NCBI RefSeq assembly: GCF_005217605.1
Contig: NZ_SZPX01000001.1
Coordinates: forward strand, 248,001 to 312,000
DNA length: 64,000 nt
DNA from: Sulfurimonas crateris
GTDB lineage: Bacteria > Campylobacterota > Campylobacteria > Campylobacterales > Sulfurimonadaceae
Direction: 5' to 3'
This document shows, one piece after another, positions 16,321-21,102 of this stretch. How positions within the stretch are numbered: the first letter of the stretch is position 1; each line of letters starts with the position of its first letter. The notes under the pieces were generated by a model. It had not been told where the DNA came from. It ran no database searches and was given only the letters and a program-made list of their open reading frames with translations. Made by a program: the position numbers and the translations under genes.

Positions 16321-16405
16321 GCGGATGTGGTGAAATTGGTATACACGCCAGACTTAGGATCTGGTGCCGTAAGGTGTGGAGGTTCAAGTCCTCTCATCCG
16401 CACCA
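16321..16405 (+). tRNA. tRNA-Leu(TAG), integration target
   Basis: 85-nt class II tRNA with a long variable arm (TGCCGTAAGGTG). Acceptor GCGGATG pairs with CATCCGC, the anticodon loop CTTAGGA reads TAG, and CCA is encoded. Its 3' half from 16351 onward starts the direct repeat that recurs at 20364, so this gene is the attachment site of the element that follows. The tRNA itself stays intact. Confidence 0.97.
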
Positions 16406-16477
16406 CCCTTTAAAATAGGGCTTCACAAGACTTTTAACAGTCACTTTAAGAAAACTTCAAAATAAATTTTTTACTAC
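16351..16477 (+). repeat. Left attachment-site repeat (attL)
   Basis: 127 bases matching 20364-20490 with four mismatches (16382, 16463, 16464, 16467). The first 55 bases are the 3' part of tRNA-Leu; the other 72 are downstream DNA with small hairpins (ccct/aggg, gact/agtc). This copy belongs to the intact tRNA gene. Confidence 0.92.
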
Positions 16478-17185
16478 AAGCATTAAACTTCTATAAATAT
16501 AAATTTTACATATTAGTTCGTCATTTTAAGTATATTATTGATCATTTTGAGACAAATGAAACAAAATGAAAAATATTGACAATTAATGAAACCCCCCCCC
16601 AACACACTAGAATTATGACAATTTTCTTTATGGTCTTTTGTTTCTAATTTTAATATCATTACCCCGTTCAAATTATTCAATGGGGTACCAAGTGTTTTTC
16701 ACTCCCAAAGTGAAGGAAGTCAGCTTTGGCTTCCCGTTGAGTAATTCAACCGGAACATTTGGTACCTGTTCCTCGCTCAAACATATTTTTAGTTCAAAAA
16801 AAAATTGATAGGCGTATTATCAAGCGTCTGGTAAAGTAGATACTCTGTTTGAGAGCTATCATAGTTAATGCAATCAAAGCAGTACCCAAGTATTGAAAAA
16901 AGAGTAGAAATTGATACAGTTGCGGCTGGTTCTCACAGGGAAACTAAAAGAGGAATCGACTACACGCAGATAGTGGCGCTGTGGATGATACTATGCTCTC
17001 ATCACCTTCTCATACTAGACCTAAACCAAAAACTCTAACATATTTGGCATGGAACAGACTGTACAGCACAACCGACAGTTGATAGTATGCTCTTGCCGAG
17101 CGTGAAAAAGGCGAAGAGGCGGAACGACCGACCGATCGAAACGATGGAATTATAGCATTTTGTATTATGTTTGCAAAATATATAA
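16478..17185. other. Non-coding, hairpin-rich left part of the element
   Basis: About 700 bases with no convincing gene. It contains a run of nine C at about 16592-16600, a cluster of hairpins (16662-16766), and one short frame of 56 codons (16868-17038) with no recognised product and no good ribosome site. Base composition drifts from very AT-rich on the left to GC-richer just before the truncated membrane-protein frame. Probably degraded element DNA. Confidence 0.5.
16662..16766 (+). other. Multi-hairpin region, possible structured RNA or DNA-processing site
   Basis: Several stems can be drawn. CCCCGTT/AATGGGG is at 16662-16685. The closing stem GGTACCAA/TTGGTACC (16684-16691 with 16759-16766) encloses CACT/AGTG, GGAAG/CTTCC (16715-16734) and GTTGA/TCAAC (16736-16750). 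Together they resemble a multi-arm junction. No known RNA family is recognised. Confidence 0.4.
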
Positions 17186-17863
17186 AATCGAGAGCTGAGC
17201 GCGCTTTTAGGAATTATAGGCGGGCTCCTTGGCGGCGGTGCGGCCGCCTTAGTTCCTGGAGTAGACGCTGCGGTAGGCGTTACGTTCAGTTATCAGGCGG
17301 CTAAAATACTTTTAATGACTCTACCAATCGTTGGTATTTTGATAGTCGGGATTTTGAGATTTACTATCATATTGATAAAAATCTTTGCTTTTCATTTTTT
17401 GAGTCTTTTTATCATGCCAATTATGTTTATGCAAAAAAACGTCGAGGCGATGGCTAAGTTTACGGTTAAGATACTAGCTACCATGCTTGAGATACCTATT
17501 TTTGTGCTGGCGGTCTGGTTGGCAATCACAGCAAACTCTTTAATTCATACTACAGGTATGGTTTTTGGGAAAACAGTCATGGGCGGGATGCTTGAGACTT
17601 CTTTGTCTCAGAATGCTACAGGTGGGAATATGCAAGTTGCAGGCGTTAACCTTACGAATTTGTTTACAGAGATGAAAATTTATTTCATAGACGGCTTTTT
17701 TGAAGTTGCGATCGCGGTATTTAGTATCGTGATTATTTACAAAATAATCATAAGCCTTCATACGGAGCTATTTCAGGCGATCGATCTTGCTTCAACAAGT
17801 GCTATTGATAATTCTATCGATAGCATGAGGACCGAAGCAGGCGGATGGGGTGCTAGGATCTAA
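17186..17863 (+). pseudogene. 5'-truncated conjugation-type polytopic membrane protein (DotA/TraY- or VirB6-like)
   Basis: The frame is open from just after a TAA at 17183, but the first ATG is at 17315. The sequence before that ATG is still protein-like (GIIGGLLGGGAAALVPGVD), so the true N-terminus has been lost. The remaining 225 codons hold about five hydrophobic helices and polar stretches (QNATGGNMQVAGVNLTNLF; DNSIDSMRTEAGGWGARI). This resembles the C-terminal part of type IV secretion channel proteins such as DotA/TraY or VirB6/TrbL; assignment is by general character. A good terminator overlaps its stop codon. Confidence 0.6.
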
Positions 17864-17886
17864 TCCTACACTCCATCATTTTTTTT
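17844..17886 (+). terminator. Rho-independent terminator at the end of the membrane-protein frame
   Basis: GATGGGGTG (17844-17852) pairs with CACTCCATC (17869-17877) with one G-T pair, with an inner AGGAT/ATCCT stem. T8 follows at 17879-17886. The stop codon TAA lies in the loop region. Confidence 0.85.
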
Positions 17887-17944
17887 CTTTGCCTCATAGG
17901 TGGCTTTCGCCTTCTCTTCTCTAATCTTACACGAAACACAGCGA

Positions 17945-18289
17945 CTAAACTGCCATTAGCTCACTCTTCTTAGCATTGTACTCATCTTGCGTAATTGCGC
18001 CCTTCTGCAAAAGACCAAACCAGTAATCAAGATCTTTTTTGCCGCCATCAGCCACGGTAATCCCGTTAGCCACAAACGCCTTATGCTCTTTTGCAACTCT
18101 CTCGTTGATCTCCATCTGCTCAAGCTCTTCCCTGACGTTCTTATAAATACTCAACCCATGCTTACGACGAAATTTTCTTATGCTTCTTTCCACAAGAATT
18201 ATCAAAAATAGTTTTAAAAAGAAAAAAGGTAGTGGCTCTGCTGCTGCTAATTTATCTTTTCTATGATATAATTCTTTTGCGATTAACAC
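17945..18289 (-). CDS. SHOCT-domain membrane-associated protein with damaged start region
   Basis: About 114 residues. Hydrophobic segment FFFLKLFLIILVE near residue 25, basic helix (RSIRKFRRKHG), then a C-terminal SHOCT domain, FGLLQKGAITQDEYNAKKSEL. SHOCT domains are short helical pairs found at the ends of many membrane and phage proteins, with no fixed function. The frame can begin only at GTG 18289 and has no ribosome site. The inverted copy of the same 5' region at 18358-18402 keeps a GGGAG site and ATG that are absent here. The gene may therefore have lost 19 bases including its start. Confidence 0.55.
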   Translation of the reverse strand: MLIAKELYHRKDKLAAAEPLPFFFLKLFLIILVERSIRKFRRKHGLSIYKNVREELEQMEINERVAKEHKAFVANGITVADGGKKDLDYWFGLLQKGAITQDEYNAKKSELMAV

Positions 18290-18402
18290 TTGTTAGAATT
18301 AATGGAGTGGCAAGGCTAAGAGATTAATTACCTCTTAGCCTTTTTTTTTGCCCTCCTAAATTCTAACAAGGGAGATTTTATGAATAAGCTGTTAATCGCA
18401 TT
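18277..18402. repeat. Long inverted repeat around a terminator
   Basis: Outer arms near 18280 (gcgattaaca) and 18393-18402 (tgttaatcgc), and middle arms cttgttagaatt (18289-18300) and aattctaacaag (18359-18370), are exact reverse complements. They enclose the perfect hairpin GGCTAAGAG/CTCTTAGCC. The right arm contains 19 extra bases (ribosome site, ATG and three codons) missing from the left arm. Confidence 0.8.
18314..18349 (+). terminator. Rho-independent terminator
   Basis: A perfect 9-bp stem GGCTAAGAG (18314-18322) / CTCTTAGCC (18332-18340) with loop attaattac is followed by nine T. It sits in the centre of the long inverted repeat, upstream of the short MNKLLIALL frame. Confidence 0.85.
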
Positions 18403-18439
18403 ACTGCTTATGTGCTTTTTTGCACCTATGTTAAATTAA
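18380..18439 (+). CDS. Possible 19-residue hydrophobic peptide
   Basis: ATG 18380 follows AAGGGAG with 6-base spacing and opens MNKLLIALLLMCFFAPMLN, a single membrane helix. Its 5' end is the inverted duplicate of the SHOCT gene start. It may be a small membrane peptide or just the surviving inverted fragment of a start region. It converges on the integrase gene. Confidence 0.3.
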   Translation: MNKLLIALLLMCFFAPMLN

Positions 18440-18453
18440 CATAGTCAAGGGGT

Positions 18454-19638
18454 TTATCCCCTTGTCTCCCAAATATCACTAATATCTTCAAAATAAATCT
18501 TCAAAGCTTCATTAATGCTATCCAAACTAACTTTAGCATATCTGCTAGTTATACTATACGATTGATGTCCTAATACTTTTGCGATAATGTCTTCTGTCAC
18601 TCCTTTATTTATAAGAGTATTGCCTAAAATATGTCTCGTGTCATGTATCCTCATTTTTTCAACACCGGCTCTTTTATATACTTTAATCCAGTGTGATCTA
18701 AATGTATCATCTGTTACATGTGGCGTCTTTACCCCCTCAAATAAAAAACCTCTTTTTTTTATGCCGTACTCTTTTAAAAAAGCGACTAAAGGAGCGGATA
18801 AAGGATACTCATGTCGCTTTCTATTTTTTGATTTTTCAGCAGTAATAATATATGTGTTTAGATTATCATTTAAATTTATTTCCGTCCACTCTAGGGTAAG
18901 AGCCTCGTTTAATCTTCTACCTACGAATAAAAAGAGCATAATGCCTCTATATCTTAAATCTTCATAGTTCCATATCTCATAAAATAATCTTTTTCGCTGC
19001 TCGTCCGATAGTTCAAAATTCATAATATTTTGAACTTTTGGTATGGCTACTTTGAGGGCTGCATTTTTCATTAATATATCTAACTCTTCAATCGCATAAT
19101 TAAAAACAGGTCTTAGTATCTGCTTTATGCTTTGAGCCGTTCTAGGAGCTAACCCTTGTCTTAGCATATCGTTTACAATCATTTGAATATCTGCTACTGT
19201 AATTTTATCGATATTGATATGTCCGATATTCTCTCTAATCCATTTGTCATATGTTTTTGCTGTACTGTAGATATTCTCTTTTGAGAGAGTTCTTGATTTT
19301 AGATCCATATAAACCTTAAATATATCGTTTAATGTTTTAAAATCTTTTTTCTTTATAACTCCCGTCTCAAGCAGCTCATCTTTTAGCAGATTGCGTTTTG
19401 CGACTGCATTTTTAACAGCGTGTAAGCCTGTGATATTGTAGAAGTTGATAGTTTTTTTTATTTGCTTATTTCTAAAGTAGAATTTGAGGACTATATCTAT
19501 ATTTTCATAGTCAATTTTTTTGAGGTCGTTTTTATTAATCTCTTTTGCTTTAAAGGTGCTATTTTTATCTTTTAAATATATACCTTTGGTATCAAGGTTA
19601 TCTAAATTGATTTTTATGAGTTGATCTTGGAGTGCCAT
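18454..19638 (-). CDS. Tyrosine-type site-specific integrase
   Basis: 394 residues. An N-terminal DNA-binding part of about 90 residues and a SAM-like core-binding domain (TVADIQMIVNDMLRQGLAPRTA) lead into the catalytic domain. The expected residues are visible: Arg in LFVGRRLNEALTLEW, HxxR in RIHDTRHILGN, and the nucleophile Tyr in HQSYSITSRYAKV near the C-terminus. The length and layout are those of tRNA-targeting phage and island integrases. It lies next to the toxin-antitoxin genes near the right end, and should catalyse recombination between the 127-bp repeats. Confidence 0.95.
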   Translation of the reverse strand: MALQDQLIKINLDNLDTKGIYLKDKNSTFKAKEINKNDLKKIDYENIDIVLKFYFRNKQIKKTINFYNITGLHAVKNAVAKRNLLKDELLETGVIKKKDFKTLNDIFKVYMDLKSRTLSKENIYSTAKTYDKWIRENIGHINIDKITVADIQMIVNDMLRQGLAPRTAQSIKQILRPVFNYAIEELDILMKNAALKVAIPKVQNIMNFELSDEQRKRLFYEIWNYEDLRYRGIMLFLFVGRRLNEALTLEWTEINLNDNLNTYIITAEKSKNRKRHEYPLSAPLVAFLKEYGIKKRGFLFEGVKTPHVTDDTFRSHWIKVYKRAGVEKMRIHDTRHILGNTLINKGVTEDIIAKVLGHQSYSITSRYAKVSLDSINEALKIYFEDISDIWETRG

Positions 19639-19641
19639 TAA

Positions 19642-19929
19642 TTATGATTTTATTAAAAAAGTTTCTTTGTATTTTAAAATGCCCAAAATAACTATTTTGT
19701 CTTCATAAATAAAATATGTGATTGTATAACCTTTAAATACTAGATCTCTTGCTTGCTCATTATCAAAATGAATAGATTTTCTATGCATATAAGGCATATC
19801 AATTATTTTAGATATTTGTTTATGTATTTCTCTTTTAAAGTCAATAGCACGCTGCAAACTATCCAATGCGATGTAATCCAACATATCATCAAGTTCTTTT
19901 TGAAATTCAGGATATTTTTCTATCTTCAA
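19642..19929 (-). CDS. ParE/RelE-family toxin
   Basis: 95 residues. The pattern matches the ParE/RelE fold: YPEFQKELDDMLDYIALDS in helices 1-2, REIHKQISKIIDMPYMHRKS, then the beta strands DLVFKGYTITYFIYEDKIVILGILKYKE. Its start directly follows the stop of the antitoxin gene, the usual antitoxin-first order. Targets of the family are DNA gyrase (ParE) or ribosome-bound mRNA (RelE); which applies is not evident. It probably stabilises the element. Confidence 0.85.
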   Translation of the reverse strand: MKIEKYPEFQKELDDMLDYIALDSLQRAIDFKREIHKQISKIIDMPYMHRKSIHFDNEQARDLVFKGYTITYFIYEDKIVILGILKYKETFLIKS

Positions 19930-20190
19930 CTAAACTGCTCTTTTTTGATGTCGCTCAATCAATCTTTTTTCAGTATCTACCCAAAACTCATCCGTAAGTT
20001 CTGTAAATGATTCAGGATTGCTTTTGTACTGCTCTAGTCTATTGGAGATAGATTTTCTATACTCATTAACTTCATTATCGGTATGATCTGTTATAATAAT
20101 TTCAATATTCTTATTTTGAAACATCTCTTTTATAGAGTTTAAAAAATTAATATTGAGTTCACTGGAATTTAAACTATATGAAGCTTGCAT
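19930..20190 (-). CDS. Antitoxin partner of the ParE/RelE toxin
   Basis: 86 acidic residues directly upstream of the toxin gene. The segment NEYRKSISNRLEQYKSNP and the tail ERHQKRAV are typical of small antitoxins, whose C-terminus wraps the toxin. The N-terminal part (SYSLNSSELNINFLNSIKEM) looks like a short beta-alpha DNA-binding segment. Assigned by position and size; no specific antitoxin family was recognised. AAGGATC lies upstream of the ATG. Confidence 0.75.
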   Translation of the reverse strand: MQASYSLNSSELNINFLNSIKEMFQNKNIEIIITDHTDNEVNEYRKSISNRLEQYKSNPESFTELTDEFWVDTEKRLIERHQKRAV

Positions 20191-20237
20191 ATTAGATCCT
20201 TTTTATGAATATGTAAAATTATAGCACAAAAAGACTA

Positions 20238-20259
20238 GGGTACGGTTTGGGTACGGTTT
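20238..20259 (+). repeat. Tandem 11-bp repeats, probable integrase arm sites
   Basis: GGGTACGGTTT occurs twice head to tail with no gap, between the antitoxin gene and the right attachment repeat. A second pair, TCTGTATA at 20332-20339 and 20342-20349, lies closer to the junction. Short direct repeats beside att sites usually bind the integrase N-terminus or an excisionase. Confidence 0.6.
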
Positions 20260-20363
20260 TAGATATAAAACAGTATATTACTATATAATTAAAAAAAGAA
20301 GAAAACCCCGTAAATAGCGAATATATATAACTCTGTATAATTCTGTATATATACTAATAATCC

Positions 20364-20490
20364 GACTTAGGATCTGGTGCCGTAAGGTGTGGAGATTCAA
20401 GTCCTCTCATCCGCACCACCCTTTAAAATAGGGCTTCACAAGACTTTTAACAGTCACTTTAAGAAAACTTCAAAAACAACTTTTTACTAC
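20364..20490 (+). repeat. Right attachment-site repeat (attR) with tRNA-Leu fragment
   Basis: 127-bp copy of 16351-16477. Its first 55 bases are a 3' tRNA-Leu fragment ending CCA, without a 5' half, so it is not a functional tRNA. A G-to-A change at 20395 breaks a T-stem pair. The downstream half continues into the sequence ahead of the GNAT gene, probably the original host context. Confidence 0.9.
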
Positions 20491-20583: not shown

Positions 20584-21102
20584 TTGTCATACATATTCAA
20601 AATAGCTACTCTTGAAGATAAAGAAGAGCTGGAGGCGCTTATTAATAGCTGTTATAGAGGAGAGAGCTCTAGGGCTGGATGGACGACAGAGGCAGACATT
20701 TTGGATGGAGCTCGTGTTGATAGAGCAATGTTAGAGAATCTTTTAAAAAATCGAGATGTTTGCCTTCTAACTCTTTGTAAGGGTTATGAGATCGTTGCAT
20801 CCATTTGCTTAACTAAAGAAGAGGAGAAGGTCAAACTTGGTCTTATTGTTGTGAAGGCATCTATGCAGGGTATGGGAATTGGCAAAAAGATTATAGAGTA
20901 TGCGCAAGAGTATGCAAAGCGAGAGTGGAGTGTCATCTCTGCTGAAGTGGAGGTTATCTCTATTCGTAACGAGCTCAAAGAGTATTATAAAAGAAGAGGG
21001 TTTGTTGATACAAAAAAATATACAACTCTTCCAAACTCTTCCTTATGGACGAGCAAAGTAGGTGAGATAAAACTTCTGTTGATGCAAAAAGAGCTTTGTT
21101 AA
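20584..21102 (+). CDS. GNAT-family N-acetyltransferase
   Basis: 172 residues. The acetyl-CoA-binding motif A reads LGLIVVKASMQGMGIGKKIIEYA (Q/RxxGxG/A), with motif B in NELKEYYKRRGFVDTKKY. The start is TTG 20584, supported by AAAGGA 6 bases upstream and the lack of a nearby ATG. The acceptor substrate is unknown. It is the first host gene to the right of the element. Confidence 0.88.
   Translation: MSYIFKIATLEDKEELEALINSCYRGESSRAGWTTEADILDGARVDRAMLENLLKNRDVCLLTLCKGYEIVASICLTKEEEKVKLGLIVVKASMQGMGIGKKIIEYAQEYAKREWSVISAEVEVISIRNELKEYYKRRGFVDTKKYTTLPNSSLWTSKVGEIKLLLMQKELC

Follow-up and report, generated by a model that had tools for sequence, protein, structure and literature searches.

The island behind the tRNA-Leu(TAG) gene of Sulfurimonas crateris, lying within the 64,000-nucleotide stretch of DNA analysed here (the window), is very probably a composite in which at least two, and probably three, accreted insertions were fused by deletion, leaving a fossil of serial insertions at one tRNA-Leu. 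Its left end likely carries a member of a previously undescribed class of structured RNA of ~640 nt, which in Sulfurimonas and several other Campylobacterales genera is located at the tRNA-proximal ends of elements belonging to three or more integrase classes, is kept at a fixed distance from tRNA-Leu through changes of integrase, and would have a position-dependent role for the elements. The composite thus replaces the reading of the first-pass annotation, in which the island was a single decayed element, and the notable content of the locus is the left-end RNA.

The tRNA-Leu(TAG) gene, predicted with ARAGORN, is the last member of a Pro-His-Arg-Arg-Leu tRNA cluster, and the same cluster is found in most relatives. 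Upstream of it lies a sodium:alanine symporter gene, also present at the corresponding locus in genome G004. Downstream of the locus are genes which we take, from our own reading of their proteins, to be mqnA-like and molybdopterin genes; mqnA is kept beside the site in G004, G034, and G061. The features of the locus (window coordinates, strand) are as follows.

16321-16405, + strand: complete tRNA-Leu(TAG), the integration target
16351-16405, + strand: left core, the 3' part of the tRNA
16406-16477, + strand: class-A left arm, copy 1, with one intact TTTTTACTAC site (16468-16477) and a second, degenerate site
16654-16660, + strand: conserved promoter-like TATnATT directly before the RNA (alignment columns 29-35, mapped to the window)
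16662-17199, + strand: predicted large structured RNA that retains 96 of the 98 consensus pairs; its 3' tail of about 95 nt is cut off at the junction
17199-17213, no strand: apparent fusion junction, where RNA homology ends and transfer-gene homology begins with no spacer
17213-17863, + strand: C-terminal 216 aa of a ~830-aa membrane protein of conjugation-type clusters, 5' truncated
17945-18289, - strand: SHOCT-type ORF (PF09851, just below cut-off), with an equivalent gene in the same place in G087
18255-18453, + strand: multi-copy hairpin and mini-ORF module, with a 19-aa hydrophobic peptide at 18380-18439
18454-19638, - strand: class-B tyrosine integrase, 394 aa, with catalytic-type motifs GRR, HDTRH, GHQ, and RYA
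19642-19929, - strand: ParE-family toxin (PF05016, E 6.4e-10), in the same position in G087
19930-20190, - strand: putative antitoxin, 86 aa (85 aa in its G087 counterpart)
20238-20363, + strand: class-B right arm, with GGGTACGG repeats at 20238 and 20249
20364-20418, + strand: right core, a copy of the tRNA-Leu 3' part found by the repeat alignment and the genome search
20419-20490, + strand: class-A left arm, copy 2, with one intact TTTTTACTAC site (20481-20490), read as the remnant of a second class-A insertion

The direct repeats 16351-16477 and 20364-20490, with a spacing of 4013, are 127 bp long and identical at 123 of 127 positions (97%), exactly as had been reported in the first-pass annotation, which was also right that they begin in the anticodon arm (at tRNA position 31) and reach 72 bp beyond the tRNA end. 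One of the four mismatches lies in the core and three in the arm. A chance repeat was rejected, since a search of the whole genome (G000, 2.2 Mb) matched just these two places (E 1.6e-61 and 4.3e-56). The core copies at the tRNA 3' part support the earlier proposal of site-specific integration at tRNA-Leu. In many congeners the tRNA-Leu 3' part (query positions 30-85) is present as a second copy, beginning at tRNA position 30/31, which points to tRNA-Leu as a common integration site. This comparison was made with one genome per species, and the relatives' site was occupied or different. In G036 (C46:1720-1950), two complete tRNA-Leu copies lie ~146 bp apart, possibly the trace of an insertion followed by loss.

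The composition of the arms is the evidence on which the composite reading mainly depends. Sulfurimonas elements at tRNA-Leu fall into integrase classes, each with its own repeat in the left and right arms. Class A carries TTTTTACTAC-type repeats in both arms, and members of one tyrosine integrase family are found close to its right ends in G008 and G006; class B carries GGGTAC repeats in both arms and adjoins integrases 51-59% identical to that of the window; class D carries TAGTCACC repeats. The 13 class-A left ends compared have an arm sequence in common, mostly with one to three TTTTTACTAC-type sites, and GGGTAC in none, and two A sites were found in each of the four class-A right ends compared. 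Two copies of GGGTAC are present in all six class-B left ends and in each of the five class-B right ends (G002, G020, G024, G034, and G087). The order in the window is a class-A left arm, a class-B integrase with its right arm, the core, and then a second class-A left arm. Stacked insertions can produce this order, whereas one class-B element by itself cannot. The 72 bp beyond the tRNA are therefore the arm of an element, and the repeat owes its unusual length to the class-A arm behind each of the two cores. In G011 and G008 this sequence stands inward of the left core, within the element, and is absent past the right core; a native chromosomal origin of the 72 bp was rejected on this ground. 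The two class-A arms of the window are identical at 69 of 72 positions, i.e., closer than arms between species, a likeness that would also fit later copying or conversion instead of two independent insertions. Tandem stacks are found at this site elsewhere: in G015 a class-A right end is followed by a class-D left end, and in G002 a class-B right end is followed by another integrase. Beside the class-A integrase on G008 C1 (L035) there is a HipA-domain protein of 529 aa with a winged-helix N-terminus; a similar 526-aa ORF stands beside an integrase on G061 C5 (L084), and a HipA-type protein is possibly part of the class-A core. Directly after the second class-A arm of the window lies a GNAT acetyltransferase gene (20584-21102, + strand), perhaps leftover cargo; it had no strong relative elsewhere in 60 congeners and was therefore uninformative as a marker of an element.

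The right half of the island is a class-B remnant. Its integrase matches PF00589, and one integrase scan of the genome contigs returned a single relative; in G020, G024, G034, and G002, relatives with 51-59% identity stand next to class-B right arms with this same core, and in G020 and G002 the cores enclose full-length class-B islands of ~30 kb. Contig C101 of G087, a different species, is colinear with this half, with a large membrane-protein gene, a gene in the SHOCT position, the integrase, the ParE-family toxin, the antitoxin, the class-B arm, and the core, at 71% identity over 1.9 kb. The membrane protein is 825-849 aa in full-length relatives and had no match in Pfam, NCBIfam, or PDB; in G115, a TrwC relaxase (E 7.5e-64) and a TrwB/TraD coupling protein (E 3.7e-19) are encoded in the same cluster as a member of this family. 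The description of the locus as a shrunken conjugative element therefore holds for the right half, given the colinearity with G087 and the G115 cluster, and not for the whole island, in which no relaxase, coupling protein, or transfer apparatus was found and the 216-aa fragment is the sole remnant of a transfer cluster. The earlier account of the cargo fared similarly: the integrase, the toxin (by its ParE-family match), the toxin-antitoxin pair, and remnants are present, and the structured RNA (16662-17199), the transfer-gene fragment (17213-17863), and the mini-ORF module (18255-18453) had been missed. The toxin and its partner form a two-gene operon as in ParDE type II systems, with a ParE_toxin Pfam match; unlike in those, the partner gene has no Pfam match, so it could not be assigned as ParD-type, and the pair sits between integrase and att, as in G087.

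The module of 18255-18453 has about 60 copies in all, spread over 27 of the 135 Sulfurimonas genomes (1-6 copies each). It consists of a strongly folding leader (z -7.8), an AAGGGAG ribosome site, and a 19-aa peptide with the consensus MNKLLxxILLMCIFAPMLN, and it stands directly behind integrase genes in the window, on G036 C9, and on G062 C64. Type I toxin modules of the Ibs type likewise have a 19-aa hydrophobic peptide, many copies, and a strongly structured leader. With its short hydrophobic peptide, ribosome site, and multiple copies, the module looks like a type I toxin-like family.

The left half behind the class-A arm is of a different kind. The sequence 16643-17199 matched many congeners, and fourteen near-complete copies could be aligned over 751 columns, with sharp ends and length-variable hairpins; the full size is ~640 nt. 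The consensus fold has 98 pairs, with 96.7% of cells paired. Double-sided changes were found at 21 pairs, vs. 8.1+/-1.9 in shuffles, none of 500 of which reached this number, and vs. 1-5 in slid controls, and the covariation score was 0.210 vs. 0.148. Cells with G-U pairs greatly outnumber those with A-C (209 vs. 19), which places the RNA on the + strand. Zero double-sided changes were seen in the closing helix (columns 40-44/617-621), for which a local 5' hairpin is a competing fold. With a model of 166 positions, a single copy of the RNA per genome was detected in 18 of the 135 Sulfurimonas genomes, as well as in four genera of two families; BLAST added a further family (G187), making five genera outside Sulfurimonas in total, and the rest of the 397 Campylobacterota genomes in the sample gave no match under strict filters. 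On contigs that include the tRNA end, the distance from the first base of tRNA-Leu to the start of the RNA is 317-347 bp, whether A, B, or D arms lie in between; the RNA follows a core copy in G015, and a 10-nt tRNA remnant with a class-A arm in G263. The copies on G029 C110 (L081; class-D arm) and G107 C48 (L082; class-B arm) are 96.5% identical, a pair that may be taken as a direct sign of swapping of ends or integrases between elements. Near-identical RNAs behind different arm classes imply that the RNA is not tied to one integrase and outlives its change. In G024 (C102:46276-47174; L085), the same structured RNA stands behind tRNA-Leu(GAG) and not TAG, so the elements are not limited to one leucine tRNA gene.

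No Rfam match of the RNA was obtained with cmscan to E 5 on the window or to E 1 on four loci carrying its relatives; HPnc0260 and mir-3926 were rejected as its families, being weak hits far below the gathering score. No relatives were found in the phage and plasmid collections searched, or in IMG/VR by exact-pattern scans, which would miss divergent copies, and, in the open-access literature, two papers on genome-wide RNA discovery do not mention Sulfurimonas or Campylobacter. Taken together, the alignments argue that the left-end block is a real structured RNA of the + strand, with a fixed place and kept by elements of different integrase classes.

The RNA of the left half ends where the transfer gene of the right half begins (17199/17213), and this junction appears to be a deletion fusion between two elements, which would account for the small size of the island. 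From the class and identity of the arms, the core copies, the junction, and the colinearity with G087, all of them directly observed, we infer the order and number of the insertion events. A class-A element would have inserted at the tRNA 3' end, its surviving part being the left arm 20419-20490. Next, a class-B element of conjugative type would have inserted at the same core, giving the order B right arm, core, A arm (20238-20490). Another class-A left end, consisting of arm and structured RNA (16406-17199), would then have been placed between the tRNA and the class-B element, either by a new insertion or by recombination with a resident copy. Finally, a deletion would have joined the RNA to the last third of the class-B transfer gene, with the loss of the A right end, the B left end, and most of the cargo.

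The single element proposed in the first-pass annotation would be a shrunken one, with the 127-bp repeat as its own att pair, held in place by the toxin-antitoxin system. The integrase, the pair, and flanking direct repeats, one of which completes the tRNA, are indeed all present and intact-looking; however, the two arms are of different integrase classes instead of both carrying the sites of the integrase's class, and the flank past the right core is also a class-A arm. Class-B elements carry GGGTAC in both arms, always so at their left ends, and there is none at the left end here. The two repeats are thus not the att pair of the integrase's own element, and the single-element explanation is scarcely credible. 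It is also unlikely that the A-left/B-right fusion was formed elsewhere, moved as a composite unit, and integrated beside a resident class-A remnant. Composite excision and transfer of accreted elements were described (PMC5704250), and the cores on both sides are intact, but a class-B integrase would not recognise the left arm of the unit, and of class-A integrases the genome yielded no intact copy, just a 68-aa N-terminal remnant (63% identity) at G000 C5:174641-174844. As to the left-end block, a position at the end of an element and small ORFs through parts of it in some species would suit the decayed remains of a coding gene, or a structured site in single-stranded DNA such as a transfer or replication origin, instead of an RNA; hairpin insertions of variable length and gaps that break the frame, many G-U and few A-C pairs on the + strand, and the conserved promoter-like box immediately upstream make this very improbable.

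Turning back to the composite, its persistence can be explained without the toxin-antitoxin pair. The integrase has all four motifs and could be active; the enzyme is intact, but one att site of its pair is probably missing. As the class-B left arm is lost, excision of the island by its integrase should no longer be possible, and both class-A arms keep only one of the usual two sites. The island would be immobile unless helped, and the missing class-B left arm is a simpler reason for its persistence than addiction.

Accretion of ICE, IME, and CIME in tandem at a tRNA gene is a known process, in which distinct elements with distantly related tyrosine integrases share one tRNA 3' end and decayed members retain att sites (PMC5704250). 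The present locus has the same traits, with more than one core copy at one target and arms of different elements, and differs in that a deletion fused the ends of two integrase classes and one outer arm mismatches the surviving integrase. The RNA can be compared with ROOL and GOLLD, which occur near tRNA islands in phages and prophages, form cages, and are of unknown function (PMC12286853). It is likewise large (~640 nt), elaborately paired with covariation, and placed in mobile DNA beside tRNA genes; unlike them, it has no match to an Rfam covariance model, belongs to integrative islands of Campylobacterales and not to the phage and viral collections tested, and stands at a fixed ~325 bp from one tRNA-Leu. 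It resembles ROOL and GOLLD in size and setting only, and a mobile-element RNA of their kind is the working model. Most likely it would be a stable transcript from its own promoter, serving the mobile element.

For the annotation of islands, the locus is a warning that what looks like a long "att repeat" can be a foreign element's arm present twice, so that repeat length and cargo alone misassign the ends of an element. Large structured RNAs of bacteria are few, and those of phages, such as ROOL and GOLLD, are without known function. A candidate RNA class with fixed spacing to a tRNA, which survives the replacement of integrases and occurs in non-pathogenic bacteria, would be a new, tractable case for studying the roles of RNA in mobile DNA.
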